This document shows, one piece after another, positions 7,008-35,387 of a stretch of DNA of 37,629 bases. The stretch is from contig JAIXPH010000053.1 in assembly GCA_027486345.1 (NCBI GenBank), forward strand, positions 1 through 37,629. The letters are read 5' to 3'. Each line of letters opens with the position of its first letter. The first letter of the stretch is position 1. The translations under genes were made by a program, and so were the position numbers. The DNA is from Paracoccaceae bacterium (GTDB taxonomy: Bacteria > Pseudomonadota > Alphaproteobacteria > Rhodobacterales > Rhodobacteraceae). Below the pieces are notes generated by a model that was not told where the DNA came from, searched no databases, and was given only the letters and a program-made list of their open reading frames with translations.

Positions 7008-7035
7008 TTTCGCGCGCCCAACCGACAGCCGCCCC

Positions 7036-20889: not shown

Positions 20890-21222
20890 TCATTTCCGGG
20901 TGACGTAGCTTTCGGGGTCCATCAGCGTGCAGCGGATCGCGGTGGCCATGCCGAACAACCGCCCCGCCAGCAGTTGCAACTCGGCACAAACGGCATCGAC
21001 GCGTGCGCGCGGACGGTCGGGGCGGTGCAGCGCGACCAGTTCGATGTTGACGGGCGTCTGACCGGCCAGCGCGCGGACGGGGATGACGACCAGATGGCAG
21101 GCGGGTTCGGTCACACCGAAGGCCCCGCAGAGGAAGGCGCGGATGTCGGTCAGGATGGCGTCGATCCGTCCCTCCACCTCCGGCAAGCTGCGGTCGTCGA
21201 TGAAGACCTTGACGTTAGGCAT
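20890..21222 (-). CDS. Tautomerase-superfamily-like small protein
   Basis: The 110-residue protein starts Met-Pro (MPNVKVFIDD). The predicted order is beta-alpha-beta-beta-alpha-beta, with strands at about 3-8, 44-51, 59-66 and 95-101 and helices at about 16-38 and 73-92. That matches the two-module fold of MIF and 5-carboxymethyl-2-hydroxymuconate isomerase, whose catalytic base is the N-terminal Pro exposed after Met removal. The start at 21222 overlaps the preceding gene's stop by eight bases. A longer in-frame start at 21306 would hide the Pro and lie inside that gene. A role in isomerising a ring-cleavage or enol intermediate is inferred from the operon. Similarity is structural in style, so confidence is moderate. 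Confidence 0.6.
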   Translation of the reverse strand: MPNVKVFIDDRSLPEVEGRIDAILTDIRAFLCGAFGVTEPACHLVVIPVRALAGQTPVNIELVALHRPDRPRARVDAVCAELQLLAGRLFGMATAIRCTLMDPESYVTRK

Positions 21223-22276
21223 GGGCGGCCCCGTCCAGGGCGATGGCGCGTTGCAGCACGGCCAGATTGCCGAGGTCCGGCCTTGCGCGCCCGGCCTCGA
21301 TGTCAAAGGCCATATCGGTGATCAGCCGGTTCACCGGCGCGTCGCGGCCATGGGCGCGCAGGATGTCCACAACCCAGCCGTTCACCTCGGCCACTTCGGC
21401 GCGGCGGCCCTTGCGCCAGTCTTGCAACGAAGTGGTCAGCGTATCCTCACGCGAGAAGGTCTTGAGGACTTCGGCAAAGATCTCATCGACATAGCGTTCG
21501 GGATGGTTGCTCATGACCGGGGCCATGCCGATGATCGGCATGATCGTCGCCCCATCGGCCAGCGCGGCCTGCATCGCCTCATATCCCGCGGCGCGCATGA
21601 TTTCGAGCATCGCGGGGATGCGGGCGGCATCATTCAGTGCCGTGTCGATGATGGCGGACGGGATCAGTTCGGCCGCGTTCACCACCAGCTTCATCCATTT
21701 GGCAGAGCGGATGTCGTCGACCACCTCCACCCGCCCGGTGCAGCGCAGGATGTCGGCCACCGCTTCCACGCGATGCTGCTGGGCAGGGTCCAGCGCGCCA
21801 AGGGCGAACCAGCTTTCGTCATGGTCGTTCTGGCGGTTGACGGTGCCCGGCACCCACATGTTCGAGGCGATCTCGATCACCGCGCCGAGGGTGCGGTGAC
21901 GGCCCACGACGGCGGCGATGTCCTCATGCGTCATGCCGTTCTGCAACCCGATGAGGAAGCCATCGGGCGCAAGGATCGGTTTGACCAGATGGCTGGCCCA
22001 TGTGGTGTCATAGGCCTTCACCACCATGAAGATCAGATCAAAGGGCTGTTTGACCTCGGCCACTTCGCACAGGTGCAGGGCGGGGACTTTCACGGTGACG
22101 CTGCGGGTGGGGAAATTCACCGTGATGCCCTTGGCGCGGATCGCCTCGATATGGGCGGGCCATTGGTCGATGAAGGTGACGTCATGCCCTGCCAGCGCGA
22201 AATCGGCGGCAATGGAGGAGCCTTGGGCACCAGTGCCGATGAAGGCGATGCGGGGGCGGGGGGATGCGGTGGTCAT
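21215..22276 (-). CDS. 2-dehydropantoate-2-reductase-family (ApbA/PanE-like) oxidoreductase
   Basis: The 353-residue protein has a Rossmann NAD(P) site (IAFIGTGAQGSSIAADFALAG, about 10-30). A VVKAYDT segment, LQNGMTHED and SAKWMKLVVNAAELIPSAI follow, where the Lys is the expected catalytic residue of the ketopantoate reductase family. It is longer than typical PanE (about 300), and its setting in a catabolic operon argues against pantothenate synthesis. It more likely reduces or oxidises a 2-oxo acid or hydroxyacid in the pathway. It overlaps the dioxygenase stop by four bases (ATGA). Confidence 0.85.
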   Translation of the reverse strand: MTTASPRPRIAFIGTGAQGSSIAADFALAGHDVTFIDQWPAHIEAIRAKGITVNFPTRSVTVKVPALHLCEVAEVKQPFDLIFMVVKAYDTTWASHLVKPILAPDGFLIGLQNGMTHEDIAAVVGRHRTLGAVIEIASNMWVPGTVNRQNDHDESWFALGALDPAQQHRVEAVADILRCTGRVEVVDDIRSAKWMKLVVNAAELIPSAIIDTALNDAARIPAMLEIMRAAGYEAMQAALADGATIMPIIGMAPVMSNHPERYVDEIFAEVLKTFSREDTLTTSLQDWRKGRRAEVAEVNGWVVDILRAHGRDAPVNRLITDMAFDIEAGRARPDLGNLAVLQRAIALDGAAHA

Positions 22277-23136
22277 GCGGGCACCTCTGACGCGACGGGG
22301 TTCATGACGAAGTCAAAGCGCGACCGCCATTTGACCGCGCCACCGGTCACGGGGTCGAACCCCGCCACCAGCGATTGCTTGACCCCGAACACCGCGTCCG
22401 AGGTCAGGTAGTCATCCCCCGCCACGAAGGTGTGGGTGATGATGGCGTCATATCCATCGCGGCGGATCATGAAATGCATATGGGCGGGGCGGTAGGGATG
22501 GCGGCCCAGACGGCCCAGCAACTGCCCCACCGGGCCATCGTCGGGGATGGGATAGGAAACGGGCTTGATCCCCTGAAACCAGTAGCGCCCATCCGGGCCG
22601 GTGACGAAGACGCCCCGGTTGTTGTGTTCGGGTTGCAGGCCGGGTTGCTGGACGTCGTAAAAGCCTTCTTCGTTGTCGGACCAGACGTCGATGCGCACGC
22701 CGTCCAGCGGGGTGCCCTGCAAGTCGGTGACGGTCCCTTCGAACAGGCAGGGTTCCGCCGCGCCATCCTTGCAAATGTTGCTGCCCATCGGCATCTCGGC
22801 CACGCCGTCCACGTGGAACGGGCCAAGGACGGTGTTTTCCGTGGCGGGCGCGGGGCGGCGGTTGTTGATCGCATCGACCAGCATCGACACGCCCAGCACA
22901 TCCGACAGCAGGATGTATTCCTGACGGTTGGCGTCGCACATCTGGCCGGTGCAGGTCAGGAAATCGATGGCCAGACCCCATTCGTCCTGCGTCAGGCCCA
23001 CATCCTTGACGAAGGCATGCAGGTGATGGACCAGCCGCGCCATCACCAGCGCCAGACGCGGATCACAGCCCGCCCCGATGCGGGCGTTGACGGCATTGAC
23101 AGAGGCGTCCTCGGTGAAGAAGGGAAATGCGGTCAT
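22273..23136 (-). CDS. Intradiol dioxygenase, probable hydroxyquinol 1,2-dioxygenase
   Basis: The 287-residue non-haem Fe(III) enzyme has an N-terminal helical dimerisation/linker domain (about 10-95) and the intradiol beta-sandwich. Iron ligands are Tyr160 (EGFYDVQQ), Tyr195 (PVSYPIP), His219 and His221 (RPAHMHF). Their spacing closely follows the Tyr164/Tyr197/His221/His223 set I recall for hydroxyquinol 1,2-dioxygenase. HVDGVAEMPMGSNI and the length also favour that subgroup over catechol dioxygenase. It opens 1,2,4-trihydroxybenzene to 3-hydroxymuconate/maleylacetate. The ATG at 23136 was chosen because the 42 residues added by an upstream in-frame ATG are Pro-rich and unlike the family. 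No maleylacetate reductase gene is seen in the window. Confidence 0.88.
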   Translation of the reverse strand: MTAFPFFTEDASVNAVNARIGAGCDPRLALVMARLVHHLHAFVKDVGLTQDEWGLAIDFLTCTGQMCDANRQEYILLSDVLGVSMLVDAINNRRPAPATENTVLGPFHVDGVAEMPMGSNICKDGAAEPCLFEGTVTDLQGTPLDGVRIDVWSDNEEGFYDVQQPGLQPEHNNRGVFVTGPDGRYWFQGIKPVSYPIPDDGPVGQLLGRLGRHPYRPAHMHFMIRRDGYDAIITHTFVAGDDYLTSDAVFGVKQSLVAGFDPVTGGAVKWRSRFDFVMNPVASEVPA

Positions 23137-23212
23137 GGCGGTCTCTTTCGGCAATGGCAGGGGGCACGGTGCGGGGGGCACCGGGTCTTTCGGGATCTCA
23201 ACGAAGGTCCGC

Positions 23213-25741
23213 TCAGGCCTGGGCGCGGCTTCGGGCGGTGGAATAGGCCAGCGCCGCGGCAAGGATCAGCGCCCCCTGGAACAGGTATTGATACATCTGC
23301 GACAGGCCGAGGAAGGAGACCGCGTTCAGCACCTCGGTCAACAGGACCGCGCCCATCAGCGTACCGATGAATGTGCCGCGCCCGCCGCGCAGGCTGGTCC
23401 CGCCCAGAACCACGGCGGTGATGGAGGCGAGGGTGTAGCTGACCCCTTGCTGCGGGTCGCCCACGCCGATTTGCGCCATCAGCATGACCGCCCCCAGCGC
23501 AGTGAACAGCGAGACGGCGACATAGGCCAGCACCACGCTGCGATCCACGCGGATGCCCATGCGGCGGGCCGAATTCTCATCCGAGCCGATGGCGCGCAAC
23601 TGCCAGCCCGCGCGATTGCGGCGCAGGATACGCTCGGCCACCAGCGCGATCACGACCAGCACGACAAAGGCCAGCGGGATCGGCCCCAGTTTCCAGCCGA
23701 TGAAATCCATCACAGCAAAGTTGAAATAGCCGTCCGGGCCGTCGCGCAGAACGAAGCTCATGCCTTGCAGGCCGATATACATGGCCAGCGTGGCGGCGAT
23801 GGGGGTGAAATTGGCAAAGCGGATGAGACAGCCGTTGATGGTGCCCACCACCGCCGCAATCCCGAACATCAGCACGAACCCCAGCGCGATGGTCTGCGGC
23901 GCCTGCCCGTCATTGATGAAGAAGGACGCCACGACGACCAGAAAGCCCGACAGAGGACCCACCGACAGGTCAATCCCCCCCATCAGCAGCGCGACGGTCT
24001 GACCCAGCGCGATGAACCCCAGCGCGGTGGCCAGAAGCAGGATGTTCGAGATGTTGAAGGCCGACAGGTAATTGCCGTTCTGCGAAAAGACATAAAGCGC
24101 CAGCGCCACGATCACCGCCGTCAGCGGGATCACAGTGGCGTTGTCGCTCTGGATCAGATGGCGTAGCCGGGCCTTGCCGTCGCGCGGTTTGGCCTGCGCC
24201 GCGCTTGCGCTTGCCACATGGGTATGCGCCTTCACGGCGGCGGCGACGATGCGGTCTTCGGTGACCTCTGCCCCATGCAGGGTTTCGGCGATCCGTCCGC
24301 GCGAAAAGACGACGACGACATCGCACAGCCCCTCCAGCTCTGCCGCGTCGGAAGAGTTGACGATCACCGGCACGCCCGAAGCCGAGACTTCGCGCAGGAT
24401 GCGGTAAATCTCGAACCGCGCGCCGACATCGACGCCTTGGGTCGGCTCATCCGCCAGAATGAAGCCCGGTTGCGACAGCAGGGCGCGGGCCATCACCACC
24501 TTTTGCTGGTTGCCACCCGAGAGCGACAGGATGCCCGCCTCAAGCCCCGGTGTCTTGACGGCCAGCGATCCAAAGATCTGCCGCACCTCTGCCAATTCGC
24601 GGCGGCGGCTGACGATGCCGGCTTGGGCAAAACGGTCCACGGCGGAAAAGGTGGCGTTCTCGCGCACGGTCAATTCGGCGGCGATGCCTTCGGAGTGGCG
24701 GTCCGAGGGCATGTAGGCCGCCTGCGCCGTCACCTCGGCGGGCGTCAGGGCGGTGCCGTTCAGGCGCACGTCGCCCTGCCAGCCTTCCAGCCCAGCAAGG
24801 GCGCGCATCAGGTCGGATTGGCCGTTCCCCTCGACCCCCGCGATGCCGATGATCTGGCCGCGCCCGACCGAAAAGGCCACGTCGCGGACCTTGCGCGTGG
24901 ACAGGCCCGTGACGGTGAAGTTGACGGGCGGCGCAACCTCGGCGCATTTCGGCGGAAAGGCGGAGGCAAGGCTGCGCCCGACGATCATGCCCAGAAGGGC
25001 GTCGTCCGACACCTCGGCCACCATGCCGCGCCCCTCGACCCGGCCATCCCGCAGGACGGTGACGCGGTGGGCAATCTGGCGCAGTTCGGCCAGACGGTGG
25101 GTGATGTAGATCACCGCCGTCCCGCCCGCCACGACCCGGCGGATGCGGGTGAACAGCATGTCCGTCGCGTCCTGGTCCAAGGCGGCGGTGGGTTCGTCGA
25201 GGATCAGGATGCGCGGGTGCAGCGCCAGCGCCTTGGCGATTTCCAGCAGGTGCTTTTGCGCCACGGTCAGGCTGTCGGCCCGGGCGGTCAGCGGCACAGA
25301 AAGGCCCACGTCCTCCAGCATCGCGGCCGCGATGGCGCGCGGGTCACCCCCGGCAAAGACGCGGTCGGGCAACGCGACGCGCAGGTTTTCCAACACCGAC
25401 AGGTCGTCCAGCACCGCCGGGTGCTGGTAGGAAATGGCGACGCCAAACGCTGCGGCCTTTTCCGGCGTCATGGCGGTGATCACGTCCTCGCCGAAGGAGA
25501 GGGTGCCGCGCGTGGGCCCGAAAACGCCCGAGATGATGTTCATCATGGTCGATTTGCCGGCACCATTTTCACCGAGGATGGCATGCACCTCTCCGGGGAA
25601 GATATCGACCGAGACGTCCGACAGAGCGGTCACACCGGAGAATTCCTTGGTGATGTCGGACAGGCGCAGGATCGGCTGCACCGCCTTGGCATCGGTCAGG
25701 GGCACTCTGCTGATTTGCGTCATCGGCTCTATCCCGGACAT
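23213..25741 (-). CDS. Sugar ABC importer: tandem ATPase fused to permease
   Basis: This 842-residue protein joins an RbsA-like double ATPase to an RbsC-like permease, normally two proteins of about 500 and 330 residues. ATPase half 1 (about 25-250) has Walker A GENGAGKST and Walker B ILILDEPT. Half 2 (about 270-495) has LSGGNQQ and ILADEPTQG but a degenerate Walker A (GVEGNGQSD), as is usual in RbsA. The permease (about 520-835) has LGQTVALLMGGIDLSVG, GSDENSARRMGI and GGTSLRGGRGT. The start at 25741 follows AAAAAGG. Possible starts at 25789 and 25801 fall within or against a hairpin and lack ribosome sites. The preceding genes give the binding protein and a second permease. Confidence 0.9.
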   Translation of the reverse strand: MSGIEPMTQISRVPLTDAKAVQPILRLSDITKEFSGVTALSDVSVDIFPGEVHAILGENGAGKSTMMNIISGVFGPTRGTLSFGEDVITAMTPEKAAAFGVAISYQHPAVLDDLSVLENLRVALPDRVFAGGDPRAIAAAMLEDVGLSVPLTARADSLTVAQKHLLEIAKALALHPRILILDEPTAALDQDATDMLFTRIRRVVAGGTAVIYITHRLAELRQIAHRVTVLRDGRVEGRGMVAEVSDDALLGMIVGRSLASAFPPKCAEVAPPVNFTVTGLSTRKVRDVAFSVGRGQIIGIAGVEGNGQSDLMRALAGLEGWQGDVRLNGTALTPAEVTAQAAYMPSDRHSEGIAAELTVRENATFSAVDRFAQAGIVSRRRELAEVRQIFGSLAVKTPGLEAGILSLSGGNQQKVVMARALLSQPGFILADEPTQGVDVGARFEIYRILREVSASGVPVIVNSSDAAELEGLCDVVVVFSRGRIAETLHGAEVTEDRIVAAAVKAHTHVASASAAQAKPRDGKARLRHLIQSDNATVIPLTAVIVALALYVFSQNGNYLSAFNISNILLLATALGFIALGQTVALLMGGIDLSVGPLSGFLVVVASFFINDGQAPQTIALGFVLMFGIAAVVGTINGCLIRFANFTPIAATLAMYIGLQGMSFVLRDGPDGYFNFAVMDFIGWKLGPIPLAFVVLVVIALVAERILRRNRAGWQLRAIGSDENSARRMGIRVDRSVVLAYVAVSLFTALGAVMLMAQIGVGDPQQGVSYTLASITAVVLGGTSLRGGRGTFIGTLMGAVLLTEVLNAVSFLGLSQMYQYLFQGALILAAALAYSTARSRAQA

Positions 25742-25755
25742 GGCTTGACCTTTTT

Positions 25756-25769
25756 CCCTGACGTCAGGG
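25756..25769. promoter_or_regulatory. Perfect 14-base palindrome before the ATPase-permease gene
   Basis: CCCTGACGTCAGGG is a perfect palindrome ending 15 bases before the chosen ATG at 25741, next to the AAAAAGG ribosome site. It could be an internal operator or a small RNA hairpin controlling initiation. If translation begins at 25789 or 25801, it is merely coding sequence. Confidence 0.35.
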
Positions 25770-25789
25770 GCTTGCAGAACGACAGACAT

Positions 25790-25818
25790 CGGGGCGCGCA
25801 CGGCCTGCGCGCGCCCCG
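25790..25818 (-). terminator. Intercistronic hairpin between binding protein and ATPase-permease
   Basis: CGGGGCGCGC (25790-25799) pairs with GCGCGCCCCG (25809-25818) around a 9-base loop, 12 bases after the binding-protein stop. No T-run follows. Such hairpins between a binding-protein gene and its membrane genes often protect the upstream mRNA or attenuate read-through, so the receptor is made in excess. Confidence 0.55.
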
Positions 25819-25830
25819 ACGGTTTGCGTG

Positions 25831-26892
25831 TTATTGGCCGACGGCCTTGGCCTGCGCGTCATCGGCCAGTTCGGCCGACAGGTAGATCGCGCCCGGCAGG
25901 TCCTTGCGGCAGGTCACCGGGTTCGGGGTGCCGGTGACCGAGTTCTCATAGACCGGAGCCTTGAAGATCTCATCCGCCGGAGGCGTGCCGCCGGTGGCCA
26001 GCGCCACGGCCCATTGCACGGCCAGACGGACGTTGTCGTTGCCGGTCGCCACGGTGAACAGCTTGAAGTCCGGGTTGGCGTCCTTGTTCTCTTCCCAGAA
26101 GCAGGCCAGCGAGTTGCCGTCCGAGGTGGCCAGCGCCGGGATGGAGCGGCCATATTCCTTGAACACCGGCAGCGCCCCCACCAGCGACGGGCCGAAGTCC
26201 GACACGATCACGTCGATCTTGTCGTTCTTGGCGATTTCCGCCGACAGAACTTGCTGCGTCAGCGCCGGGTCCCAATTGGTGACGGCAAAGGGTTCGGGGT
26301 TCACGAAGACGTATTTGTCGTCCAGAACCTCTTTCATCCCCTTCAGCTCGTCCAGACCCTGGCTGTTGCCTGCAGGGCCGGACAGGAACAGGATGTTGCC
26401 GCCTTCGGGCAGGGTTTCCTTGATCCAGTTGCCCCAGCTCTTGCCATCCTCGACGAAGGACGAGCCGATGAACTTGGCGTAGTTTTCGCCTTCCTTGCCG
26501 CCCACGTCCACGCGGTAGGGCACCACGATCGCGCCCGAACGGTGGGCGTTGGTCAGGGCGGGCAGCACGGCGGGACCGGCATCGCCGAACACCACCAACG
26601 CCTTGATGCCGCGCGCGGCCATGGAGTTGATGTCCGAGATCGCCTTTTGCGTGTTGCCCTGGCCATCGGCATATTCATACTGGGTGATGGACGGGCATTT
26701 GGCCGCCTCTTCCGCGCCAGACGCGGTGGTGACCAGACGCCAGCTGTTGCCGCCGAACCCGTCAAGCAGGGCCAGCGATGCCTCATTCGGGCCGCACCAC
26801 GACGGGGTTTCCGCCAAGGCTCCGGTCGCAGAAAGGGCGGTGGTCAGGGTGAAAGCGGCCAGGGCCACCTTCATGGGGGTTGCCTTCGACAT
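25831..26892 (-). CDS. Ribose-type (type I fold) ABC substrate-binding protein
   Basis: The 353-residue periplasmic protein has a signal peptide (about 1-27, cut after ATGALA). The body follows the RbsB/type I pattern: ISDINSMAARGIKALVVFGD, a PVAIVVPYRVD-like hinge strand (here SGAIVVPYRVDVGG), GNILFLSGPAGNSQGLDELKG and a SDFGPSLVGALPVFKEYG segment near the second sugar-binding loop. It should deliver a sugar, polyol or related ligand to the two-permease importer encoded around it. Two Cys pairs near each end (Cys33/Cys66 and a late pair) could form disulphides. The ligand is unknown. Confidence 0.9.
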   Translation of the reverse strand: MSKATPMKVALAAFTLTTALSATGALAETPSWCGPNEASLALLDGFGGNSWRLVTTASGAEEAAKCPSITQYEYADGQGNTQKAISDINSMAARGIKALVVFGDAGPAVLPALTNAHRSGAIVVPYRVDVGGKEGENYAKFIGSSFVEDGKSWGNWIKETLPEGGNILFLSGPAGNSQGLDELKGMKEVLDDKYVFVNPEPFAVTNWDPALTQQVLSAEIAKNDKIDVIVSDFGPSLVGALPVFKEYGRSIPALATSDGNSLACFWEENKDANPDFKLFTVATGNDNVRLAVQWAVALATGGTPPADEIFKAPVYENSVTGTPNPVTCRKDLPGAIYLSAELADDAQAKAVGQ

Positions 26893-26916
26893 TGTCCTTT
26901 TCCTCCGAGTTGGACT

Positions 26917-27918
26917 TTAGTTTGAACGAGTTCTTGCGGACCGCCTCCAGCGGACCGAGTAGACGCCGATCCCGAAAACCAAGGCGAGCGCCTGGATGAT
27001 GGTTTGGGCAGAGAACGGCACTCCAACGGCGAGCGCGAACTGGCTGAGCTGGTTCAGGAAGAACGCGGCGATCACCGTTGAAATCGGATAGCCCCGACCG
27101 CCAAGCAGCGAGGTCCCCGCCAGCACCACGACGGCAACCGACGGAAGCAGCAGGCTGTCGCCCTGAAAGGCCGTGGGTTCCCGCGTGATGCCCGAGATCA
27201 GGATCCCGGCCACGCAGTAGAGCAGTTGGGCATAGACATAGGCCATGGTCTGGTGCAGCCGCACCCGCAGCCCGGCCGCATGGGCGGCGGCGGGGTTGGC
27301 GCCAATCGCCTCGAACCGGCGACCGACCACAGTTTTCTTCAGCACGAAGCTGACAAGCAGCATCAGGGCCACGGCAAAGAGGATGGAGTTCGGGATGCCC
27401 GCCACCTTGCCGCCCGCAATCGCCGACATCAGCGGCGTGGTGATGCGCGGCACGCCGCCCGACACCGCAAAGACCGCGCCGTACAGCAAGGCGTTCATCC
27501 CGATGGTCGCGATGATGGCGTTCAGCCGCATCACCCCCACCAGAAACCCGTTGGCGATCCCCGCCACGATGGCACAGACGACCGCGAGGCCGATGGCGGG
27601 CAAAAGCTGCGCGTCATTGCCAGAGGGCAGGTGCGTGGCAATCACCACGGCCAGCGACACGCTGCCCGGAAGCGACAGGTCAAATCCGCCCTGCTGCACC
27701 ACCAGCATCTGCCCCAGGCCCACGATGGCGATGATTGCGGCAAAGGGCAGGCTGCCCGACAGCGCCCCGGCAGAGACCGAGGACGGCGCGACCATCAGGC
27801 ACACCAGCAAGAGCACCAGCGTGGACATAAGGACCGTGACAAAGCCCCGGGCAAAGCGCACCTGCCGCAGATCGGGGAACGGGCTGGGATCGTTGGCAAG
27901 CGGGCTGTTGTCGATCAT
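26917..27918 (-). CDS. Ribose-type ABC transporter permease, second membrane subunit
   Basis: The 333-residue RbsC-like permease has about nine hydrophobic helices and the family segments VGLGQMLVVQQGGFDLSLPG, GANPAAAHAAGL (cytoplasmic coupling loop) and VVVLAGTSLLGGRGYPISTV. Most CUT2 importers use a permease homodimer. Here this free permease probably pairs with the one fused to the ATPase. It precedes the binding-protein gene by 24 bases in the same operon. Confidence 0.9.
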   Translation of the reverse strand: MIDNSPLANDPSPFPDLRQVRFARGFVTVLMSTLVLLLVCLMVAPSSVSAGALSGSLPFAAIIAIVGLGQMLVVQQGGFDLSLPGSVSLAVVIATHLPSGNDAQLLPAIGLAVVCAIVAGIANGFLVGVMRLNAIIATIGMNALLYGAVFAVSGGVPRITTPLMSAIAGGKVAGIPNSILFAVALMLLVSFVLKKTVVGRRFEAIGANPAAAHAAGLRVRLHQTMAYVYAQLLYCVAGILISGITREPTAFQGDSLLLPSVAVVVLAGTSLLGGRGYPISTVIAAFFLNQLSQFALAVGVPFSAQTIIQALALVFGIGVYSVRWRRSARTRSN

Positions 27919-27949
27919 GGTTTTCCCCTTCTGGCGGCCTGGATGCGTC

Positions 27950-28930
27950 TCAGGCGATGTCCAGCGTGATCTTCACGGCCTTGGTCGGGTCTTTGCCCAG
28001 CTCATAGGCCGTCAGCGCATCGTCCAGCGCAAAGCTGTGGGTCTGGATCGGCGACAGGTCGATCCCCGTGCGCTCCAGAAAGCGGATGGCCGAGGGCCAC
28101 ACGCCCGGAGACCCGATACAGCCGCGCACCGTCAGGTCCTTGATCTGGATCTTGCCCAGATCGACCGGGATCTTCTGACCGATGCTGATGCCCACCATCG
28201 ACACAAAGCCTTCGGGGCGGGCGTAATCGAACACATTCGCCAGCGAGGACGGATGCCCCGCCGCCTCGACCACCAGATCGGCGCCGCCCTTGGTCATTTC
28301 GGTGACCGCTTCCACCGGGTTGCCGCTGGACGGGTCGACCGTGCCCACACAGCCCAGTTTCATCGCGATCTCGCGCCGCAGCGGCACCGGATCGACCACG
28401 ATCACCTCTGCCCCCATGCCGATGGCGGCGGCGGCGGTGACAAGACCGATGGTGCCGCCACCCGAGACGACCACGCGATGCGACGGGTTCACCCCGCCGT
28501 GGCGCAAGACGGCATAGTAACCACAGGTGAACGGCTCGATCAGCGCGCCTTTGGCGTCATCGACGGCATCAGGCAGCTTGTGCAGCCATTCGGGACGCGC
28601 GGCGAAGTATTCGCGGTTCGCGCCATCCATGGAAAAGCCGAAATGGTGGATGCGTTCGGGCGTGCGGATCACGCATTCGCCCACCACACGGTCGCCCACT
28701 TGCAAACCCTTGACGTTGCGGCCGACCTCGACCACCTCCCCCACCCATTCGTGGCCGGGGGTGACGGGATAGCTGATAGGGATGATGTATTTGCCCGCCA
28801 GAAGCTCGTAATCCGAATGGCAGATGCCCACACGGCGCGACCGGATCAGGACTTCGTTGTCGGTGATGCCGGGGGTCTGAAGCTCCGTCACGACGGGCTT
28901 GTTCGGTTGATCGAAGATGAGCGCTTTCAT
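27950..28930 (-). CDS. Zinc-type alcohol dehydrogenase (MDR) without structural zinc site
   Basis: The 326-residue medium-chain dehydrogenase has catalytic-zinc ligands Cys37 (VGICHSDY), His60 and Glu61 (PGHEWVGEV) and a Rossmann site (GGGTIGLVTAAAAIGMGAEV). The four-Cys structural zinc lobe normally placed after GDRV is absent: the sequence runs GDRVVGECVIRTPERIHHFG. Sugar-alcohol or cyclitol oxidation is a reasonable guess from the importer. The substrate cannot be read. It lies 31 bases upstream of the free permease gene and 21 bases after the Gfo/Idh gene. Confidence 0.87.
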   Translation of the reverse strand: MKALIFDQPNKPVVTELQTPGITDNEVLIRSRRVGICHSDYELLAGKYIIPISYPVTPGHEWVGEVVEVGRNVKGLQVGDRVVGECVIRTPERIHHFGFSMDGANREYFAARPEWLHKLPDAVDDAKGALIEPFTCGYYAVLRHGGVNPSHRVVVSGGGTIGLVTAAAAIGMGAEVIVVDPVPLRREIAMKLGCVGTVDPSSGNPVEAVTEMTKGGADLVVEAAGHPSSLANVFDYARPEGFVSMVGISIGQKIPVDLGKIQIKDLTVRGCIGSPGVWPSAIRFLERTGIDLSPIQTHSFALDDALTAYELGKDPTKAVKITLDIA

Positions 28931-28951
28931 GTCGGTCTCCGGGGTTCGGCG

Positions 28952-29959
28952 TCAGGCCACGGTTTCGATGCGGCCCGACAGGGCCGAGCGGAACACCGCC
29001 TCAAGCAAGGCAATGTTGTTCACGAGGTGATCTGCGGTGATCGGATAGGCCGCCCCACCCCGCACGGCGCGGGCGAACGCCACAAGGTTGTCCTTTACCG
29101 GCTCTGCCTTGCCGATTTCGGTGGTGATGATCGGCCCACCTTTCATGGCGGAGGTGACGATCCAGCCATCGGGCGCTTCGACATGGGCCTTGTCGCGGAT
29201 GTCGATCCAGCCATGCGAGCCATAGACCGTGAAGCGCGACATGAACGGGTTGGCCAGCGAGGCCGAAACGTAAGAAGTGCCGCCGCCCTTGAACTTGATA
29301 TAGGCCGCAACCGTATCGCCCTGCGGCAGGTCGGACGACAGCTGTTCGCAGATGCAGAGCACGCTTTCAGCAGCGCCCAAGAGCCGCACCGACAGGTCCA
29401 GCAGGTGGATGCCCGTTGCCGTCATGCCGCCTGCCGGGGCCTGATCGGCCTTCAGCCGCCAGTTGTCGCGCGCCAGCGACAGGAACTTGTCATGGCTGAA
29501 ATTCGCCTCGATCTGGTGGATGCGGCCCAGCGTTCCGGCATCGGCCATCGCCAGCATTTCGGCCACCGGGGGTTCAAACCGGCGCTCATGGCCCATGCCC
29601 AGCACCAGACCAGCATCGCGGCAGAGCGCCACCGACCGCTCCGCTTCTGCCTTCGTCAATGCCAGCGGTTTTTCGCAGAAGATGTGCTTGCCCGCCGCCA
29701 CCGCCGCCGCGATCTGCGCGGTGTGCAGCGAATGCGGCGTGGCCAGAACCACGGCCTCGACCTCCGGGTCGTTCAGGGCGTCGGCGTAATCGGCGGACAG
29801 CGGAATGCCCTTGCCTTCGCACAGCGCGCGGACGGTTTCCACGTTGGGTTCCACGGCACGGACCACGCGGATGTCATCGGGCGCGGCTTGCAGGACTGCC
29901 AGCATCTTCTGGCCCCACCAACCCATGCCGATCAGGGCGATTTTCACAGGACCGGACAT
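28952..29959 (-). CDS. Gfo/Idh/MocA-family oxidoreductase
   Basis: The 335-residue protein has an N-terminal NAD(P) Rossmann domain (ALIGMGWWGQKML, about 8-20) with the family EKP motif (HIFCEKPLALTKAEAE, near 93-108). The C-terminal alpha/beta domain includes a HLLDLSVRLLG helix with the usual active-site His. Family members oxidise or reduce ring hydroxyls of sugars and cyclitols such as inositol, or make 3-keto-glycosides. In this operon it probably handles the imported ligand or its first product. Its start shares one base with the stop of the YciI gene. Confidence 0.88.
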   Translation of the reverse strand: MSGPVKIALIGMGWWGQKMLAVLQAAPDDIRVVRAVEPNVETVRALCEGKGIPLSADYADALNDPEVEAVVLATPHSLHTAQIAAAVAAGKHIFCEKPLALTKAEAERSVALCRDAGLVLGMGHERRFEPPVAEMLAMADAGTLGRIHQIEANFSHDKFLSLARDNWRLKADQAPAGGMTATGIHLLDLSVRLLGAAESVLCICEQLSSDLPQGDTVAAYIKFKGGGTSYVSASLANPFMSRFTVYGSHGWIDIRDKAHVEAPDGWIVTSAMKGGPIITTEIGKAEPVKDNLVAFARAVRGGAAYPITADHLVNNIALLEAVFRSALSGRIETVA

Positions 29960-30243
29960 CAGCGGTTATCCACGCGTTTGAGGAAAGGACGGATCGAGAC
30001 GGTCTTCCACAGACCGACCTTGTTGAACGGGTCGTTGCGGTTGAAATCCTCGACGGCGGAGAGGCTGTCGGCCTCCAGCACGAAGCAGGAGCCGATCATG
30101 GTTTCATTGTCATCGGCCAGCAGCGGGCCGGAGATCACGGTCTTGACCGTCGCGGCGGCAAGATAGGCCTTGTGCGCGTCATAATTCGCAAGACGGGTCG
30201 CAACCGCTCCGTCATGGTCAAGGCAATGGACGACGTAGTGCAT
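29959..30243 (-). CDS. YciI-family small protein
   Basis: The 94-residue single-domain protein has the ferredoxin-like YciI pattern: MHYVVHCLDHDGAVATR, a YDAHKAYLAAA helix, SGPLL, GSCFVLEADS and a closing FNRNDPFNKVGLWKTVSIRPF. The conserved His in YDAHKAYL and the Asp before the last strand match the putative active site of the family. Relatives include muconolactone isomerase-like and dehalogenase-like proteins, and few have proven functions. Its place among ring-processing enzymes suggests isomerase or lyase chemistry, but that is inference. Confidence 0.85.
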   Translation of the reverse strand: MHYVVHCLDHDGAVATRLANYDAHKAYLAAATVKTVISGPLLADDNETMIGSCFVLEADSLSAVEDFNRNDPFNKVGLWKTVSIRPFLKRVDNR

Positions 30244-30259
30244 GGGGTGCCTCGCGGGG

Positions 30260-31330
30260 TCAGGCGGGGATGATCTTGCGCGCCTTCAGCTCGTCGAAGA
30301 CGTCGGTGAAGCTGGTGCGCGTGGACTGATAGGCGGTGAAGCCCAGCGTCCGGCTGTTGGTCATGTCGGTGAAACATTCCAGCGTGCGGCCAAGGTCGGC
30401 GTCGCTGTGCCACCACGAGGCCAGACGATCCACGGGGATGTCCTGCAACCCGTGCTTGGCCACGATCTCGGCCCAGATCGCGGGCGCATCGGCCATCTGG
30501 TCCACCAAGGGCGTCGGGTGGCCGGGATGTTCGGCGACCGGCAGCCCGAAGTAATCGGCGATCTGCTTCCAGAGCCACGTCCAGCGGAAGACATCGCCAT
30601 TGGCGGTGTTGAAGGGCGTATCCGCCGCCGCCGGGGTTTCGACCGTCCACAAAAGTTGCTGGGCCAGAAGCCGCGCATCGGTGACATCGGTCACGGCATT
30701 GTATTGCTCGGTCGAGCCGGGATAGACGAAGGGCCGCCCGGTGTGCTTGCAGATCGTGGCATAGCAGGCCAGCGTCACGGCCATGTTCATCGCATTGCCG
30801 ATGACAAAGCCGATCATGGTGTGCGGGCGGTGGACCGACCATGTGAAACCGCGCTTGGCGGCGTATTCGAAGACCACATCCTCTTGCGCGTAGTAGAAGT
30901 TCAGGCCCGGCAGACGGGGGCTGGATTCAAGGAAGGGCGTGTAGGGTTTGACCTTGGCGTAATCGTCGAAAGAGCCGAGGTAGTGCTTCAGCCCGGTCAC
31001 CAGCGCCGCATGTTTCAAGGGCGCGTCGGGCAGACCGTCAAACAGATGCCGGATCATCGCGCTGTTGACGCGGACGTTTTCCGCCTCATTCGCCTGACGC
31101 GACCAGGTGCAGAAAAACACATGCGTCACATCCTGTGCGACAGCGAGCGCAGCCTTGGCCGCTGCCGCATCCGTCAGGTCCGCGGCAATGTGGCGGTCCG
31201 AAAACTCCAGATCAGCGGCCCCCCGCGACAGGGTGACCACGGTCCAGCCGTTCTCTTTCAGCAACCGGCCCGTGTAGCTGCCGGACAATCCGGTGGCCCC
31301 CACGATCAGGGCGACATTCTTCGTGCTCAT
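30260..31330 (-). CDS. PRISE-like SDR reductase (progesterone 5-beta-reductase/iridoid synthase type)
   Basis: The 356-residue extended SDR has the cofactor site GATGLSG (about 10-16), VTHVFFCTW, VTGLKHYLG with the Lys that replaces the classical SDR Lys, NFYYAQEDVVFE with the catalytic Tyr, and WSVHRPHTMIGF. These are hallmarks I recall from the plant PRISE family, which reduces activated C=C bonds of enones with NADPH. Bacterial relatives have been annotated as epimerases, but the Lys-His-Tyr pattern favours ene-reductase chemistry. The ATG at 31330 follows GAGAGAGA; an upstream in-frame ATG at 31468 lies inside the previous gene. The likely role is reduction of an enone or enal formed from the imported compound. 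Confidence 0.8.
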   Translation of the reverse strand: MSTKNVALIVGATGLSGSYTGRLLKENGWTVVTLSRGAADLEFSDRHIAADLTDAAAAKAALAVAQDVTHVFFCTWSRQANEAENVRVNSAMIRHLFDGLPDAPLKHAALVTGLKHYLGSFDDYAKVKPYTPFLESSPRLPGLNFYYAQEDVVFEYAAKRGFTWSVHRPHTMIGFVIGNAMNMAVTLACYATICKHTGRPFVYPGSTEQYNAVTDVTDARLLAQQLLWTVETPAAADTPFNTANGDVFRWTWLWKQIADYFGLPVAEHPGHPTPLVDQMADAPAIWAEIVAKHGLQDIPVDRLASWWHSDADLGRTLECFTDMTNSRTLGFTAYQSTRTSFTDVFDELKARKIIPA

Positions 31331-31358
31331 TCTGAGTCTCTCTCTGCTGGGGCCGGGT

Positions 31359-32426
31359 TCAGGTGCGGACGAGGATCTTGAGATGCTCGCCCGACGGATC
31401 GAGCAGCGCCTCAAAGCCCTTGGCGACGACATCTTTGGCGTCGATGCGGGCGGTGATGACCTTTTCAACCGGGAAGGTGCCCGCCGCGATCATGCGGGCG
31501 ATGCGCGGCCAGATCTGGGTGGGGTAGCACCAGGTCGCCTCGACCGTGATGTCCTTCAGCGCCCAGAGCATGGCGTCGATGCTGGCGGGCTTCATATGCA
31601 GTCCAACCTGCACCACGCGCCCTTGACGACGGACGGCTTTGACACAGGTATTCAGCGAAGCCTCAAGCCCCACACATTCCAGTGCCACATCCACGCCGAC
31701 CCCTTCTTCGGTCAGATCGGCGACCATTTGCAGAATATCTCCGCTTCGGGGATCTACAACATGGGCGTAGGGCGCGATTTCAGCGATGATGCGGCGGCGG
31801 TTCGGGTTGGGTTCCGACACGATGATGGTGGCCGCCCCGGCGGCCTTGGCGGCCAGCACGGTCAGCGCGCCGATGGGACCGGCCCCTGACACCAGAACGG
31901 TCGATCCTGCCTCCACCCGGCCGCGATCCACACCATAAAGCGCCACGGCGGCGGGTTCGATCATCGCGGCCTGTTCGTCGGTGATGCCATCGGGCACGGG
32001 CTGGGCGTTGTAATCCTTGATCACCGCCTTCTCACCCATGCCGCCCCATGCCCAGCTCAGGCCCACGCAGCCCATGCTGGGCGACAGATGGAACAGCCCA
32101 CGCTTGCCATAATAGTCGTTGCGCGGCGACAGAAGCGGCTGGATCGAGATGCGATCACCGGCCTGCACATGGCTGACGGCATCGCCAACCCTCAGAACTT
32201 TCGCGGAAAATTCGTGGCCGAGGATCTGCGGATTGGTGGCACCCGTATAGGCATGCGGCTCTTTCGGCGTGACGATGGGACCAGCGATGTATTCGTGCAG
32301 ATCGGTGCCGCAGATGCCGGTAACAAAGGGCGCGATCAGCACATCATCGGGTGCCAGATTGCCCGAGGGTTCGGCGACATCCTCGACCCGGATATCCTTG
32401 GCCCCATGAAACCGTACTGCACGCAT
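31359..32426 (-). CDS. Butanediol/polyol dehydrogenase-like zinc MDR enzyme
   Basis: The 355-residue protein is most like 2,3-butanediol and L-iditol-type dehydrogenases. It has catalytic Cys39 (TGICGTDLHEY), His71/Glu72 (ILGHEFSAKV), a Glu in the MIEPAAVAL segment and Rossmann VSGAGPIGALTVLAAKAAGA. The Cys-rich structural zinc lobe is replaced by a Cys-free stretch (QPLLSPRNDYYGKRGLFHLS). The ATG at 32426 follows GGAGGGACAGCG on the minus strand and gives the family's usual N-terminus. An upstream in-frame ATG at 32585 adds 53 unlikely residues. It is the first gene of the twelve-gene operon and probably oxidises a vicinal diol or polyol. Confidence 0.88.
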   Translation of the reverse strand: MRAVRFHGAKDIRVEDVAEPSGNLAPDDVLIAPFVTGICGTDLHEYIAGPIVTPKEPHAYTGATNPQILGHEFSAKVLRVGDAVSHVQAGDRISIQPLLSPRNDYYGKRGLFHLSPSMGCVGLSWAWGGMGEKAVIKDYNAQPVPDGITDEQAAMIEPAAVALYGVDRGRVEAGSTVLVSGAGPIGALTVLAAKAAGAATIIVSEPNPNRRRIIAEIAPYAHVVDPRSGDILQMVADLTEEGVGVDVALECVGLEASLNTCVKAVRRQGRVVQVGLHMKPASIDAMLWALKDITVEATWCYPTQIWPRIARMIAAGTFPVEKVITARIDAKDVVAKGFEALLDPSGEHLKILVRT

Positions 32427-32642
32427 CGCTGTCCCTCCGCCCGTTCCGCACCCGCCACCCCGCCCTTTGGTCCGCCACATCGCCATGGGCCCGAAACCGG
32501 GTCTGCGGCGGCCTGTGCGTGTCATTCCAAAGGTCTGCGGCCTGTCGTCCTGCCTCTGCGTCCCGCTGCCCAGTCCCGGCAGCACGACTCATGTCCCTGA
32601 CGCCATCGATAGCAAAGCCGCTGCGGATCGACTTGCAGGAAT

Positions 32643-32668
32643 TTAGCCGTTTCGGATAAATCGGCTGA
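32643..32668. promoter_or_regulatory. Candidate operator, imperfect inverted repeat
   Basis: TTAGCCG (32643-32649) and CGGCTGA (32662-32668) match as an inverted repeat at six of seven positions, with AGCCG/CGGCT perfect, and a 12-base AT-rich centre. It is placed midway between the divergent genes. The helix-turn-helix/solute-binding protein encoded nearby is the natural candidate to bind it. Confidence 0.35.
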
Positions 32669-32699
32669 GGAAGCGCCAAAGTGATCTGCCTATGCTGAA

Positions 32700-32712
32700 C
32701 CTGTCGGACAGG
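32700..32712. promoter_or_regulatory. Candidate operator, short palindrome
   Basis: CCTGTC-G-GACAGG is a 13-base palindrome with 6-base arms, ending 11 bases before the dehydrogenase ATG at 32724 and next to its ribosome site (GGGGTGG). Binding there, or RNA folding, could limit expression of the dehydrogenase/regulator transcript and so give autoregulation. Confidence 0.3.
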
Positions 32713-32723
32713 CGGGGTGGAAT

Positions 32724-33647
32724 ATGGAGTCGGAACTGGCGCAATCGAACCGGGCAAAGGCCGCTGCACCCGCAGTGGGCTGGATCGGGGCGGGAAAAAT
32801 GGGCGCGCCCATGGCCCGGCATCTTTTGGCCGCCGGGGCCGATCTGGTGGTGACAGACCCGAATGCCGAGTCGCGCAACGCGATGGCCGCGGCGGGGGCT
32901 CAGGTCGCGGCCAGCCTTGCCGCGCAGCAAGGCCGCGACGTGGTCTTTGCGACCCTGCCCCACGACGCCGCCCTGCGCGCCGTCATCCTTGGCAGCGCGG
33001 ATCAGCCCGGTCTGGCCGCGCTGATGGCGCCCGGCACGGTCTTCGTTGAGATGAGCACGGTATCGCCCGAATGCTCGGCCGAAGTGGCGCGTGTGCTGGA
33101 ACAGGCGGGCGTCCTGTACGTGCGCGCGCCCGTATCGGGCAGCACCGTCACGGCCGAACAGGGGGCGTTGACCGTCCTTGCCTCGGGGGATGCGGCGGGA
33201 TGGGAGTTGGCCTTGCCCCTGATCCGGGCCTTTTCGACCAAGCAGTTCTTCCTTGGCCCCAAGGAAGAAGCGCGTTTCATGAAACTGGTCATCAATACCT
33301 TGGTCGGCGCCAATGCCGCCCTTCTGGCCGAGGCCCTGTCGCTGGGGGCCAGCGGCGGGCTCAGCCGCGCCGCGATGATGGAGGTGATCTGCGAAAGCGC
33401 CGTGTCATCGCCGCTGTTTCGCTATAAGACCGGACTGATCGCCTCGGGGGATTACACCCCGGCCTTCACCGTCCAGCAGATGATGAAGGACTTCACCCTG
33501 ATCAGCGATGCGGGGCGGGCCAATGGCGTGCCGTTGATGGCCTCGGGTCTGGTGCTTGAGCTCTACCGGGCGGCGGCGAATGCCGGGCTTGACGAAGACG
33601 ACTTCTTTGCCTTGATCAAATGGCATTCGGGGATTTCCGCACAATAG
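32724..33647 (+). CDS. 3-hydroxyisobutyrate-dehydrogenase-family oxidoreductase
   Basis: The 307-residue beta-hydroxyacid dehydrogenase has Rossmann GWIGAGKMGAPMARHLLAAG (about 19-38), substrate loop PVSGS (136-140), catalytic Lys187 (FMKLVINTLVG) and a C-terminal KDFTLISDAGRANGVPLM segment. Relatives oxidise 3-hydroxyisobutyrate or reduce tartronate semialdehyde and succinic semialdehyde. Which applies here is not readable. It is divergent from the twelve-gene operon and nine bases upstream of the regulator-like fusion gene, so it belongs to the same island. Confidence 0.88.
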   Translation: MESELAQSNRAKAAAPAVGWIGAGKMGAPMARHLLAAGADLVVTDPNAESRNAMAAAGAQVAASLAAQQGRDVVFATLPHDAALRAVILGSADQPGLAALMAPGTVFVEMSTVSPECSAEVARVLEQAGVLYVRAPVSGSTVTAEQGALTVLASGDAAGWELALPLIRAFSTKQFFLGPKEEARFMKLVINTLVGANAALLAEALSLGASGGLSRAAMMEVICESAVSSPLFRYKTGLIASGDYTPAFTVQQMMKDFTLISDAGRANGVPLMASGLVLELYRAAANAGLDEDDFFALIKWHSGISAQ

Positions 33648-33656
33648 GACGCCACA

Positions 33657-35387
33657 GTGCAGCAACAGAACCGCCATATGATGTCCGCGCCGGAATTGAC
33701 GGCGCATGAGCTGTCACGGATCGTCGATTTCCTGCGCAAACTGCGCGCGCCCTTCGACACGGGGGTGCCGGGGGCATCGAAGGATGTGTTCTGGAATGTG
33801 GTTCTGGAATTGGTGGACGCGCATCTGCGGCGGCGTCCGATCGACAAATCCGGACTGATCACGCTGGCGGCGGTGCCCTACAGCACTGGCAACCGCATGG
33901 TCACAAAGATGATCGAGGACGGGCTGATCCGGCAGGTGCCGCGCGGGGGCGGTCTGAAGACCCATTTCCTCGAACCGACCGACACGCTGCTGACCAGTTT
34001 CATGGCCTATGCCACCCATGTGAAGGGGCATCTGGCCCGCACCTTCGGGCTGCGCAAGGGGGCGGAGACCAACGAGTATTACTTCGGCGGCAGCTATTTC
34101 GCGGCGCAGATCATTTCGCCGATCCGGGGCGACGACATCGACGGCAAGGTGCCCGGCGACATCCGCTTCTTGCTGAACGACGACAACTATTTCTCGTCCA
34201 TGCGCAACATGTGGTCGGATTTCCGCAACGAGTTGGGCCGCAAGAGCAGTTTCACCCTGCAACGCCTGCCGGAGCTCTATTCCAGCTCGCAGGTGACGTT
34301 CCAGAAGCCCACCGCCGAATTCGACGTCATCTCGATCAATATGCCTTGGTTGGGGGAGTTTGCCGAAAAAGGCTATCTCGCGCCGCTGGATGATCTGTTG
34401 CAGGACGCGGCGATCAACCCCTTGGACTTCCACCCCTCGGTCTGGGGCACGGGCAACTGGAAGGGCGTGCAATACGGCATCCCGATCTATTGCACGATCG
34501 AGATTCTGGCCGCCCGGCGCGACCTCTTCGATGACCGGGGCCTGACCTATCCGCGCACCTTCGACGAAACCATCGCCGCCGCGCGCAGCCTGCACCGCCC
34601 GGCGCAGGAATTCTACGGCATTGCGTGGAACGGCCATCGCGGCATGCCCATCGCACATTCCTTCATGTTTTTTCTGGCCGCCTGCCAAAAGACCATCATC
34701 GACGTTCCGATGCACAATCCCGAAGGCTGGGATTTCCCGCGCTTTGAAAAGCTGAAGCTGCAAATCGACACCACCGACGCGCTGGAGGTGATCGATTACA
34801 TGAAGCAACTGGCCGAAGTCTCGCCCCCCGACATCGCCACGATGGATTGGGAAAAGCACACGCAGTGCTTCATGTCGGGTCGGGCCGGGATGGTCTATTG
34901 CTGGACGATGCGCGCCGCGCGGTTCGAACATGAACTCAGCTCGCAGGTGGCGCGGCGGGTGGCCTACCTGCCGCCGCCGTCGCGGCGGATGCGCCAGATC
35001 GCGGCCCCGATCGGCGGTTTTCTGATGACGATCCCGGCCACGGTCAAACGCGCGCGGCAAAAACAGATCATCGACGCCATCGCCTGGATGGTCTCGCCCG
35101 AGGCGATGAAGGCCCATGTGAAGAACGGCTTCCCCGTCGCCCCGCGGTTTTCCGTCTGCGCCGACCCCGAGGCGCTGGCCTCCTCTCCCATCGTCAGCAT
35201 GGTGGACCAATTGGCGCGGCGGAATGAACTGGTGACCTGGGCCCGCCCGCCGATCAAGGAATTCAGCCTGATCGAACAGATCCTGGGCACGGAAATCCAT
35301 GATGCGGTGTTCCATGGCAAGAACCCGAAGCAGGCGCTCCGGGATGCGGAAAACAGCATTCTGCGGGCAGTGAACGCCGCACAGTGA
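33657..35387 (+). CDS. Winged-helix DNA-binding domain fused to a family-1 ABC solute-binding domain
   Basis: The 576-residue protein has two parts. Residues 45-125 look like a MarR-type winged helix: ELVDAHLRRRP, a recognition-helix-like VPYSTGNRMVTKMIEDGLI, then RQVPRGGGLKTHFLEPTD as the wing. Residues 168-545 match a family-1 extracellular solute-binding protein, with a FDVISINMPWLGEFAEKGYL hinge segment, PLDDLL, YGIPIYCTIEILAARRDLFD, an FMSGRAGMVYCW strand and a terminal ALRDAENSIL helix. There is no signal peptide or membrane segment, so the sensor domain should be cytoplasmic. SgrR is the known precedent for this layout but uses a family-5 domain. The GTG at 33657 was chosen because AGGAC lies seven bases before it; ATGs at 33678 and 33681 lack ribosome sites. 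A ligand-responsive regulator of the divergent operon is inferred. Confidence 0.82.
   Translation: MQQQNRHMMSAPELTAHELSRIVDFLRKLRAPFDTGVPGASKDVFWNVVLELVDAHLRRRPIDKSGLITLAAVPYSTGNRMVTKMIEDGLIRQVPRGGGLKTHFLEPTDTLLTSFMAYATHVKGHLARTFGLRKGAETNEYYFGGSYFAAQIISPIRGDDIDGKVPGDIRFLLNDDNYFSSMRNMWSDFRNELGRKSSFTLQRLPELYSSSQVTFQKPTAEFDVISINMPWLGEFAEKGYLAPLDDLLQDAAINPLDFHPSVWGTGNWKGVQYGIPIYCTIEILAARRDLFDDRGLTYPRTFDETIAAARSLHRPAQEFYGIAWNGHRGMPIAHSFMFFLAACQKTIIDVPMHNPEGWDFPRFEKLKLQIDTTDALEVIDYMKQLAEVSPPDIATMDWEKHTQCFMSGRAGMVYCWTMRAARFEHELSSQVARRVAYLPPPSRRMRQIAAPIGGFLMTIPATVKRARQKQIIDAIAWMVSPEAMKAHVKNGFPVAPRFSVCADPEALASSPIVSMVDQLARRNELVTWARPPIKEFSLIEQILGTEIHDAVFHGKNPKQALRDAENSILRAVNAAQ

Follow-up and report, generated by a model that had tools for sequence, protein, structure and literature searches.

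What is a family-1 solute-binding domain doing behind a winged helix, in a protein that lacks a signal peptide and is encoded beside an importer whose own receptor belongs to another family? The question is raised by a stretch of DNA of 37,629 nucleotides from a Paracoccaceae bacterium, referred to here as the window, in which a first-pass annotation had described the gene product as an SgrR-like one-component regulator. The answer favored here, to which we assign a probability of roughly 80%, is that the protein is a cytosolic one-component transcription regulator of import and catabolism operons, with a MarR-type head that would act on a palindrome and a family-1 domain that would serve as ligand sensor. 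Its domain architecture, the lack of a signal peptide, the conserved palindrome, and the genomic linkage were computed in this work. The protein apparently represents an uncharacterized kind of one-component DNA-binding switch. None of the NCBIfam models describes it, and a search of the literature, covering open-access papers, found neither a characterized family member nor a characterized family-1 counterpart.

Table 1. Features of the regulator gene and its surroundings (positions count from the first nucleotide of the window)
Feature	Position	Strand	Remarks
Ketopantoate-reductase-like (PanE/ApbA) protein	21215..22276	-	
Intradiol ring-cleavage dioxygenase	22273..23142	-	inner start
CUT2 ATPase fused to second permease	23213..25735	-	one ORF, 840 aa from inner start
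Periplasmic receptor of CUT2 importer	25831..26892	-	Peripla_BP_4 PF13407
CUT2 (ribose-type) permease	26917..27918	-	
Zinc-binding dehydrogenase	27950..28930	-	best NCBIfam match IolM, below cut-off
Gfo/Idh/MocA dehydrogenase	28952..29959	-	best NCBIfam match IolG, below cut-off
94-aa ORF	29959..30243	-	named by position, where annotated relatives have YciI-family gene
SDR-type oxidoreductase, PRISE kind	30260..31336	-	start at inner ATG
Zinc-binding dehydrogenase, first gene of divergent operon	31359..32426	-	start set at the ATG ending at 32426; longer ORF also listed
Probable operator AATTTAGCCGTTTCGGATAAATC	32640..32662	.	between divergent operons; group consensus AATTTATCCG-N3-CGGATAAATT; family core TATCC-N5-GGATA
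3-Hydroxyisobutyrate-dehydrogenase-like reductase, first gene of regulator operon	32724..33647	+	
Regulator gene	33657..35387	+	MarR-type winged helix, linker, and SBP_bac_1 domain, without signal peptide
Winged-helix DNA-binding domain, residues 16-130	33702..34046	+	recognition helix 75-87, wing 91-107; fold, profiles
Linker, residues 131-165	34047..34151	+	low model confidence; conserved motif YYFGGSY or near variant
Family-1 (SBP_bac_1, CUT1-type) solute-binding domain, residues 166-576	34152..35384	+	Pfam, Foldseek

Architecture of the regulator and its operon

The regulator is encoded by an ORF of 576 aa with a GTG start, and this ORF is conserved in the alignments of relatives. It is the second gene of its operon, 9 bases after the reductase. 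Divergently from this operon, the minus strand carries a series of genes for dehydrogenases, a CUT2 importer, and an intradiol dioxygenase. The divergence that had been ascribed to the regulator gene thus belongs to the operon, within which the regulator follows the reductase. As had been proposed, the adjoining importer was found to use a ribose-type receptor. The catabolic cluster (21215-32426) contains two zinc dehydrogenases, the oxidoreductase with IolG as best match below the cut-off, a YciI-like ORF, and the intradiol dioxygenase, to which an annotated maleylacetate reductase is added in some relatives; it is speculation that the cluster could convert a cyclitol-like compound into a trihydroxybenzene whose ring is then cleaved. 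The ATPase-permease fusion matched ABC_tran in two stretches as well as BPD_transp_2. Elsewhere in the window (2288-12564), genes that by eye resemble a type I secretion system lie beside a gene for a 1842-aa protein with repeated calcium-binding-like motifs.

The reading frame of the regulator opens three codons before the GTG, and an in-frame stop is located four codons upstream, so that neither a longer N-terminus nor a hidden signal peptide, as considered in the first-pass annotation, is encoded. The most hydrophobic 13-residue stretch within the first 60 residues scores 1.11 in a screen that is blunt, as 78 regulators had a median of 1.11 and a maximum of 1.92 (L083), and 11 importer binding proteins ranged from 0.84 to 2.45; the argument against a signal peptide therefore rests on the upstream stop and the folded winged helix. 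The interrupted locus L080 was omitted from this screen, from the 51-sequence alignment, and from the tree described below, and was kept in the neighborhood and palindrome counts with an approximate start. Judged by the lack of a signal peptide, the regulator is probably cytosolic. Relatives are mostly annotated in public as "extracellular solute-binding protein", as would be fitting for a conventional CUT1 binding protein of the periplasm whose N-terminus is miscalled or unusual. This alternative is extremely unlikely in view of the missing signal peptide, the conserved winged helix, and the absence of a CUT1 permease from the window cluster, in which the importer is of the CUT2 type; a periplasmic receptor with a miscalled start was rejected because of the stop codon directly upstream.

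The C-terminal part of the protein matched the Pfam family SBP_bac_1 (PF01547) over residues 217-485 with 73.4 bits, compared to a cut-off of 26, and the other matches of the full-length protein at E-values up to 1 were SBP_bac_8 and, weakly, SBP_bac_6. A full-length AlphaFold2 model, based on 51 aligned sequences (the window regulator and 50 of the 79 loci kept in the survey described below), had a mean pLDDT of 81.5. The nearest solved relative of the sensor is the Agrobacterium solute-binding protein Arad_9887 (5iai), which was matched over residues 175-565 by phmmer (E 1.9e-30), by a profile (E 1.8e-53), and by the sensor model in Foldseek (E 4.8e-28, TM-score of 0.89 by target length). 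The residues W231, R287, D289, W398, G453-G454, and R530-P531 are common to 5iai and invariant or nearly so in the 51 regulators. From its fold and these shared residues, the sensor is an intact domain that has probably retained closure on a ligand. An otherwise identical regulator whose sensor has lost ligand binding and responds instead to contact with the transporter or an enzyme would account for the conserved linker motif, which a plain tether does not need, but the complete fold and the near invariance of the residues in common with 5iai make this reading unlikely.

The N-terminal domain was modeled with helices at residues 16-36, 44-57, 64-70, and 75-87, strands at 91-95 and 103-107, and a final helix at 109-129/130, and the same elements were obtained (pLDDT of 81.7) when it was modeled alone from 22 of the 51 sequences. 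The models thus predict a MarR-type winged-helix fold with helices before and after the wing. In a Foldseek search of the PDB, the four matches with E < 1e-3 were all structures of one MarR-family regulator, and later matches were mostly other MarR/SlyA-type regulators, among them an HpaR-DNA complex; structural similarity is moderate for the five best matches, with TM-scores of 0.41-0.44 by query and 0.46-0.52 by target. Scanned at full length, the regulator matched no Pfam family in residues 1-165 at E-values up to 1, and it scores below the curated cut-offs of MarR and MarR_2. The best winged-helix profile matches are weak across the 22 N-domains scanned singly, of which 17 matched MarR_2 at E-values up to 1 (best 9.9e-6), 11 HTH_IclR, and 11 TrmB, and the best match of the window N-domain had an E-value of 0.044 (14.4 bits, cut-off of 27).

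A class-wide search with the N-domain profile found matches at E-values up to 1e-8 in 31 of 387 genomes. Beyond the full-length members, weaker places were matched at E-values of 2.9e-15 to 6.6e-9, and all five that were scanned (L117, L121, L123, L124, and L128; E 5.3e-15 to 6.6e-11) have a receiver domain (Response_reg) followed by weak MarR-like matches; the window regulator itself has no Response_reg match in Pfam. Given the MarR-like folds and these receiver-MarR relatives, the head of the regulator looks like a known DNA-binding module. The SBP_bac_1 score, the AlphaFold2 and Foldseek results, and the upstream stop support the initial description of a winged helix joined to a complete solute-binding domain without signal peptide, and the fold and the weak profile matches place a DNA-binding fold within residues 1-165. 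Both domains initially delimited were confirmed, and their limits shift from 45-125 to about 16-130 and from 168-545 to about 166-576.

The palindrome between the divergent operons

The intergenic region 32427-32723, named in the first-pass annotation as the DNA for a binding assay, contains a conserved palindrome. Alignment of the divergent regions of 24 loci of the window's group, the window included, revealed one strongly conserved palindrome, AATTTATCCG-N3-CGGATAAATT, to which the window copy has two mismatches. No match to the group palindrome was obtained in 100 dinucleotide shuffles of the window, and the genome of the window contains a single copy at up to 3 mismatches to a slightly shorter pattern. 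Other groups of loci have the same core with different flanks.

An enumeration, made after the palindrome had been noticed in the alignment but covering all patterns with 5-base arms and spacers of 0-12 (1024 x 13 = 13,312), was run for 80 loci, namely, the window and the 79 kept loci (best 80 of 486 stretches), on the sequence that precedes the operon, to a maximum of 450 bases. TATCC-N5-GGATA ranked first: an exact copy was present in 20 of the 80 upstream regions, where 0.055 would be expected judging by the remainder of the loci, a copy within one mismatch in 51 (0.55 sites expected), and a copy within two in 67 (6.1 expected by chance). Since the loci are related, these counts, like those of the neighborhoods below, are not independent; following dereplication at 70% identity to 15 representatives, ATCCA-N3-TGGAT (8/15), which is the same palindrome shifted by one base, and TATCC-N5-GGATA (7/15) were the top two of the 13,312 patterns (mean 0.23). 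A site with up to two mismatches is absent upstream in 13 of the 80 loci (L028, L052, L055, L057, L061, L067, L068, L069, L075, L081, L084, L088, and L095), in some of which the regulator is not the first gene, so that the searched region may be wrong there. For L053, L054, L083, and L087, the sole site within two mismatches looks like chance.

Thirteen loci had played no part in the discovery, and their regions were picked by hand (in the case of L142, before the importer operon); two of them, L019 and L020, are kin of loci that were used. A site with at most two mismatches was found in 10 of the 13 and with at most one in 7, and none was found in L021, L104, and L106. A longer pattern was searched for in 19 related genomes, G016 with its weak relative only being omitted. 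All nine carriers of the gene have the site about 1 kb upstream of it, seven with at most two mismatches and two with three. Elsewhere in the nine carriers, and in the 10 genomes without the gene, there is no site with at most two mismatches; sites with three mismatches occur elsewhere eight times, and the reversed control pattern gave none. This conservation makes the palindrome at 32640-32662 a probable operator, which is predicted here for the first time. A scan of positions 32380-32790 for sigma-70 promoters found no sigma-70-like site.

In L142 (G080), tandem sites at 2952 and 2972 precede the importer operon, and an exact site at 14493 precedes a separate Xaa-Pro peptidase gene, which suggests that the regulon extends beyond a single operon. 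A pair of sites at a distance of 21 bases was found in 7 of the 11 Roseibium-type loci (L090 and L092-L101), namely, in L090, L092, L094, L097, L099, L100, and L101. Both arrangements bear on whether the regulator controls its own reductase operon only, the importer being regulated by something else. Such a restriction would agree with the position of the predicted operator, 61 bp from the reductase start and 213 bp from the start of the divergent gene, and with nine Rhizobium-type loci that have no CUT2 receptor in reach, and yet it is improbable, as the Roseibium-type palindromes are flanked by the regulator gene on one side and the divergent CUT2 receptor gene on the other and as the L142 sites precede both the importer operon and the peptidase gene.

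Upstream of the reductase-regulator operon, L081 and L084 have TAATACCGTATTA, and L083 has a near copy of it, replacing TATCC-N5-GGATA. This may reflect a change of DNA specificity within the family, possibly together with a changed recognition helix.

Spread of the family and origin of its sensor

As judged from the sequence matches, the regulator family is proteobacterial and mainly alphaproteobacterial. A tblastn scan of contigs with peptides of the binding domain yielded 486 candidate stretches encoding relatives, the best 80 of which were kept as 79 loci in which the query was matched from residue 40 or earlier; the remaining 407 stretches may include plain binding proteins. The N-terminal part was matched in 13 of 61 near genomes, the window's own included (weakest G016, E 7.9e-5). 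Within the order, the N-domain was found at E-values up to 1e-20 in 54 of 292 genomes, and across the phylum in 7 of 397, one of these outside the class, and the named loci also include a Paraburkholderia (L088). Among the order matches listed, the open frame spans 579 codons or more in 68 of 69 cases and 320 in the other, which would fit a head that almost always occurs as part of a fusion. Three matches to the family head within a single genome were found in G658, G826, G965, G974, and G1006.

According to BLAST classes, a CUT2 receptor gene is present in the fetched stretch in 64 of the 79 kept loci (best 80 of 486 stretches), even though the sensor is of the CUT1 type. The chance of a CUT2 receptor within 16 kb is about 7%, based on 217 PF13407 matches in some 51 Mb of 12 related genomes, which is a rough yardstick obtained by another search method from Rhodobacterales-type genomes only, without Rhizobium genomes. 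A CUT1 receptor gene was found in three of these 79 best loci, as well as in L021 and L104. In 51 of the 79 loci, the nearest classified upstream gene encodes the reductase, has the same orientation, and is no more than 400 bases away; in 11 it is a divergent CUT2 receptor. Complete CUT2 importers also adjoin all five remote members (28-34% identity), of which two come from 1.4-Mb genomes, and importers and enzymes vary widely between loci. Fifteen of the 79 kept loci are without a CUT2 receptor in reach: the nine Rhizobium-type loci, which keep divergent dehydrogenase genes (L046, L048, L049, L058, L064, L065, L066, L082, and L086), the short stretches L068, L069, L073, and L075, and L052 and L071. 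An Aminobacter locus has a CUT1 importer instead, and an Agrobacterium locus has genes of both types.

A maximum-likelihood tree of sensor domains was built from 34 of the 51 regulators and 10 of 11 importer solute-binding proteins (L002 omitted), five of the 10 being encoded near regulators. The 34 regulators form one clade (support 97/96) separate from the 10 family-1 importer proteins. Few importer branches are present in the tree, they are long, and the program cautions that long branches may group together; a single origin of the regulators is therefore supported, not proven. A copy of the sensor from the neighboring importer, already doubted in the first-pass annotation, was rejected, as the receptor of that importer belongs to another family (Peripla_BP_4) and the regulator clade stands apart. 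The simplest reading of the tree would be that the fusion arose once and was then recruited to many CUT2 operons. More tentatively, and at somewhat less than even odds, these proteins may form a separate transcription factor family, in which a response-regulator-like MarR head was joined once to a CUT1 binding protein and recruited in many Alphaproteobacteria as cytosolic sensor for CUT2 operons, reading oxidized or otherwise processed cargo inside the cell by binding-protein closure. An intracellular intermediate had been put forward as a possible ligand in the first-pass annotation. If so, importer receptor and regulator sensor come from different superfamilies and can read different chemical forms.

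Proposed mode of action and comparison with known systems

DNA binding itself, dimerization, ligand binding, and the direction of control are what we infer for the cytosolic regulator. The MarR-type winged helix, presumably as a dimer, would bind the palindrome with the TATCC-N5-GGATA core between the reductase-regulator operon and the CUT2 import and catabolism operon, and in the absence of ligand it would keep both operons low. The fused family-1 domain would close in the cytosol on a small ligand, which would be the imported substrate or a compound formed early in its breakdown, and closure would alter DNA binding, so that the head lets go and the arrival of the substrate turns on its import and breakdown. 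The divergent layout and the kinship to MarR favor repression, and a repressor is thus more likely than an activator, activation being possible.

The matching DNA site beside the transporter genes that are probably under its control suggests that this switch signals when a nutrient should be taken up and degraded. The 79 kept loci (best 80 of 486), and probably more, encode proteins that are mostly annotated as extracellular but look like cytosolic regulators. The predicted operator makes regulon and ligand directly testable, and each sensor offers a starting point for finding what an orphan CUT2 importer transports and which catabolic pathway follows. New small-molecule biosensors could also be derived from binding-protein sensors on a MarR-type head.

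Likenesses exist to several known systems. The regulator resembles MarR-family repressors in helix order and wing and, according to the prediction, in a palindromic site between divergent operons, whereas MarR proteins have no binding-protein domain and the window sequence scores below the MarR cut-offs. The alphaproteobacterial receiver-MarR response regulators have a related output head but carry a receiver domain and no binding protein. CUT1 solute-binding proteins, the nearest being 5iai, are the periplasmic receptors of CUT1 importers; the regulator has their whole fold and family motifs but lacks an export signal and is encoded beside a CUT2 importer. Sensors derived from periplasmic-binding-protein folds are also present in the LacI family, the LysR family, and Btr, which employ other binding-protein families and other DNA-binding domains, and GntR-type heads fused to family-1 or family-8 domains may exist in Firmicutes.

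The remaining comparison is that with SgrR. SBP_bac_5 (PF00496) is absent from the regulator in Pfam at E-values up to 1, and the SgrR N-terminal winged-helix model (PF12793) matched neither the regulator nor was it among the 22 families matched by the 22 N-domains. An SgrR-family member that has drifted in sequence would show the same order of winged helix and solute-binding domain, but this possibility is very unlikely, because neither model was matched at E-values up to 1 and because the closest folds are family-1 proteins for the sensor and MarR for the N-domain; SgrR membership was rejected on the same absence of both models. SgrR of E. coli and DsvR of V. cholerae have an N-terminal DNA-binding and a C-terminal solute-binding domain and are tied to sugar metabolism (PMC13060122). 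They share with the regulator a DNA-binding head and a solute-binding domain in one protein, and the SgrR-type combination of a winged helix with a cytosolic solute-binding domain is present in the regulator, cytosolic location being judged by the lack of a signal peptide. SgrR and DsvR carry SBP_bac_5, whereas the regulator has a MarR-type head and SBP_bac_1; the action of SgrR is mediated by a small RNA, whereas the regulator gene adjoins an import operon with its own palindrome. The term "SgrR-like" therefore suits the possible mode of action and not the family, and the best reading is that the regulator works like SgrR but stands outside the SgrR family.
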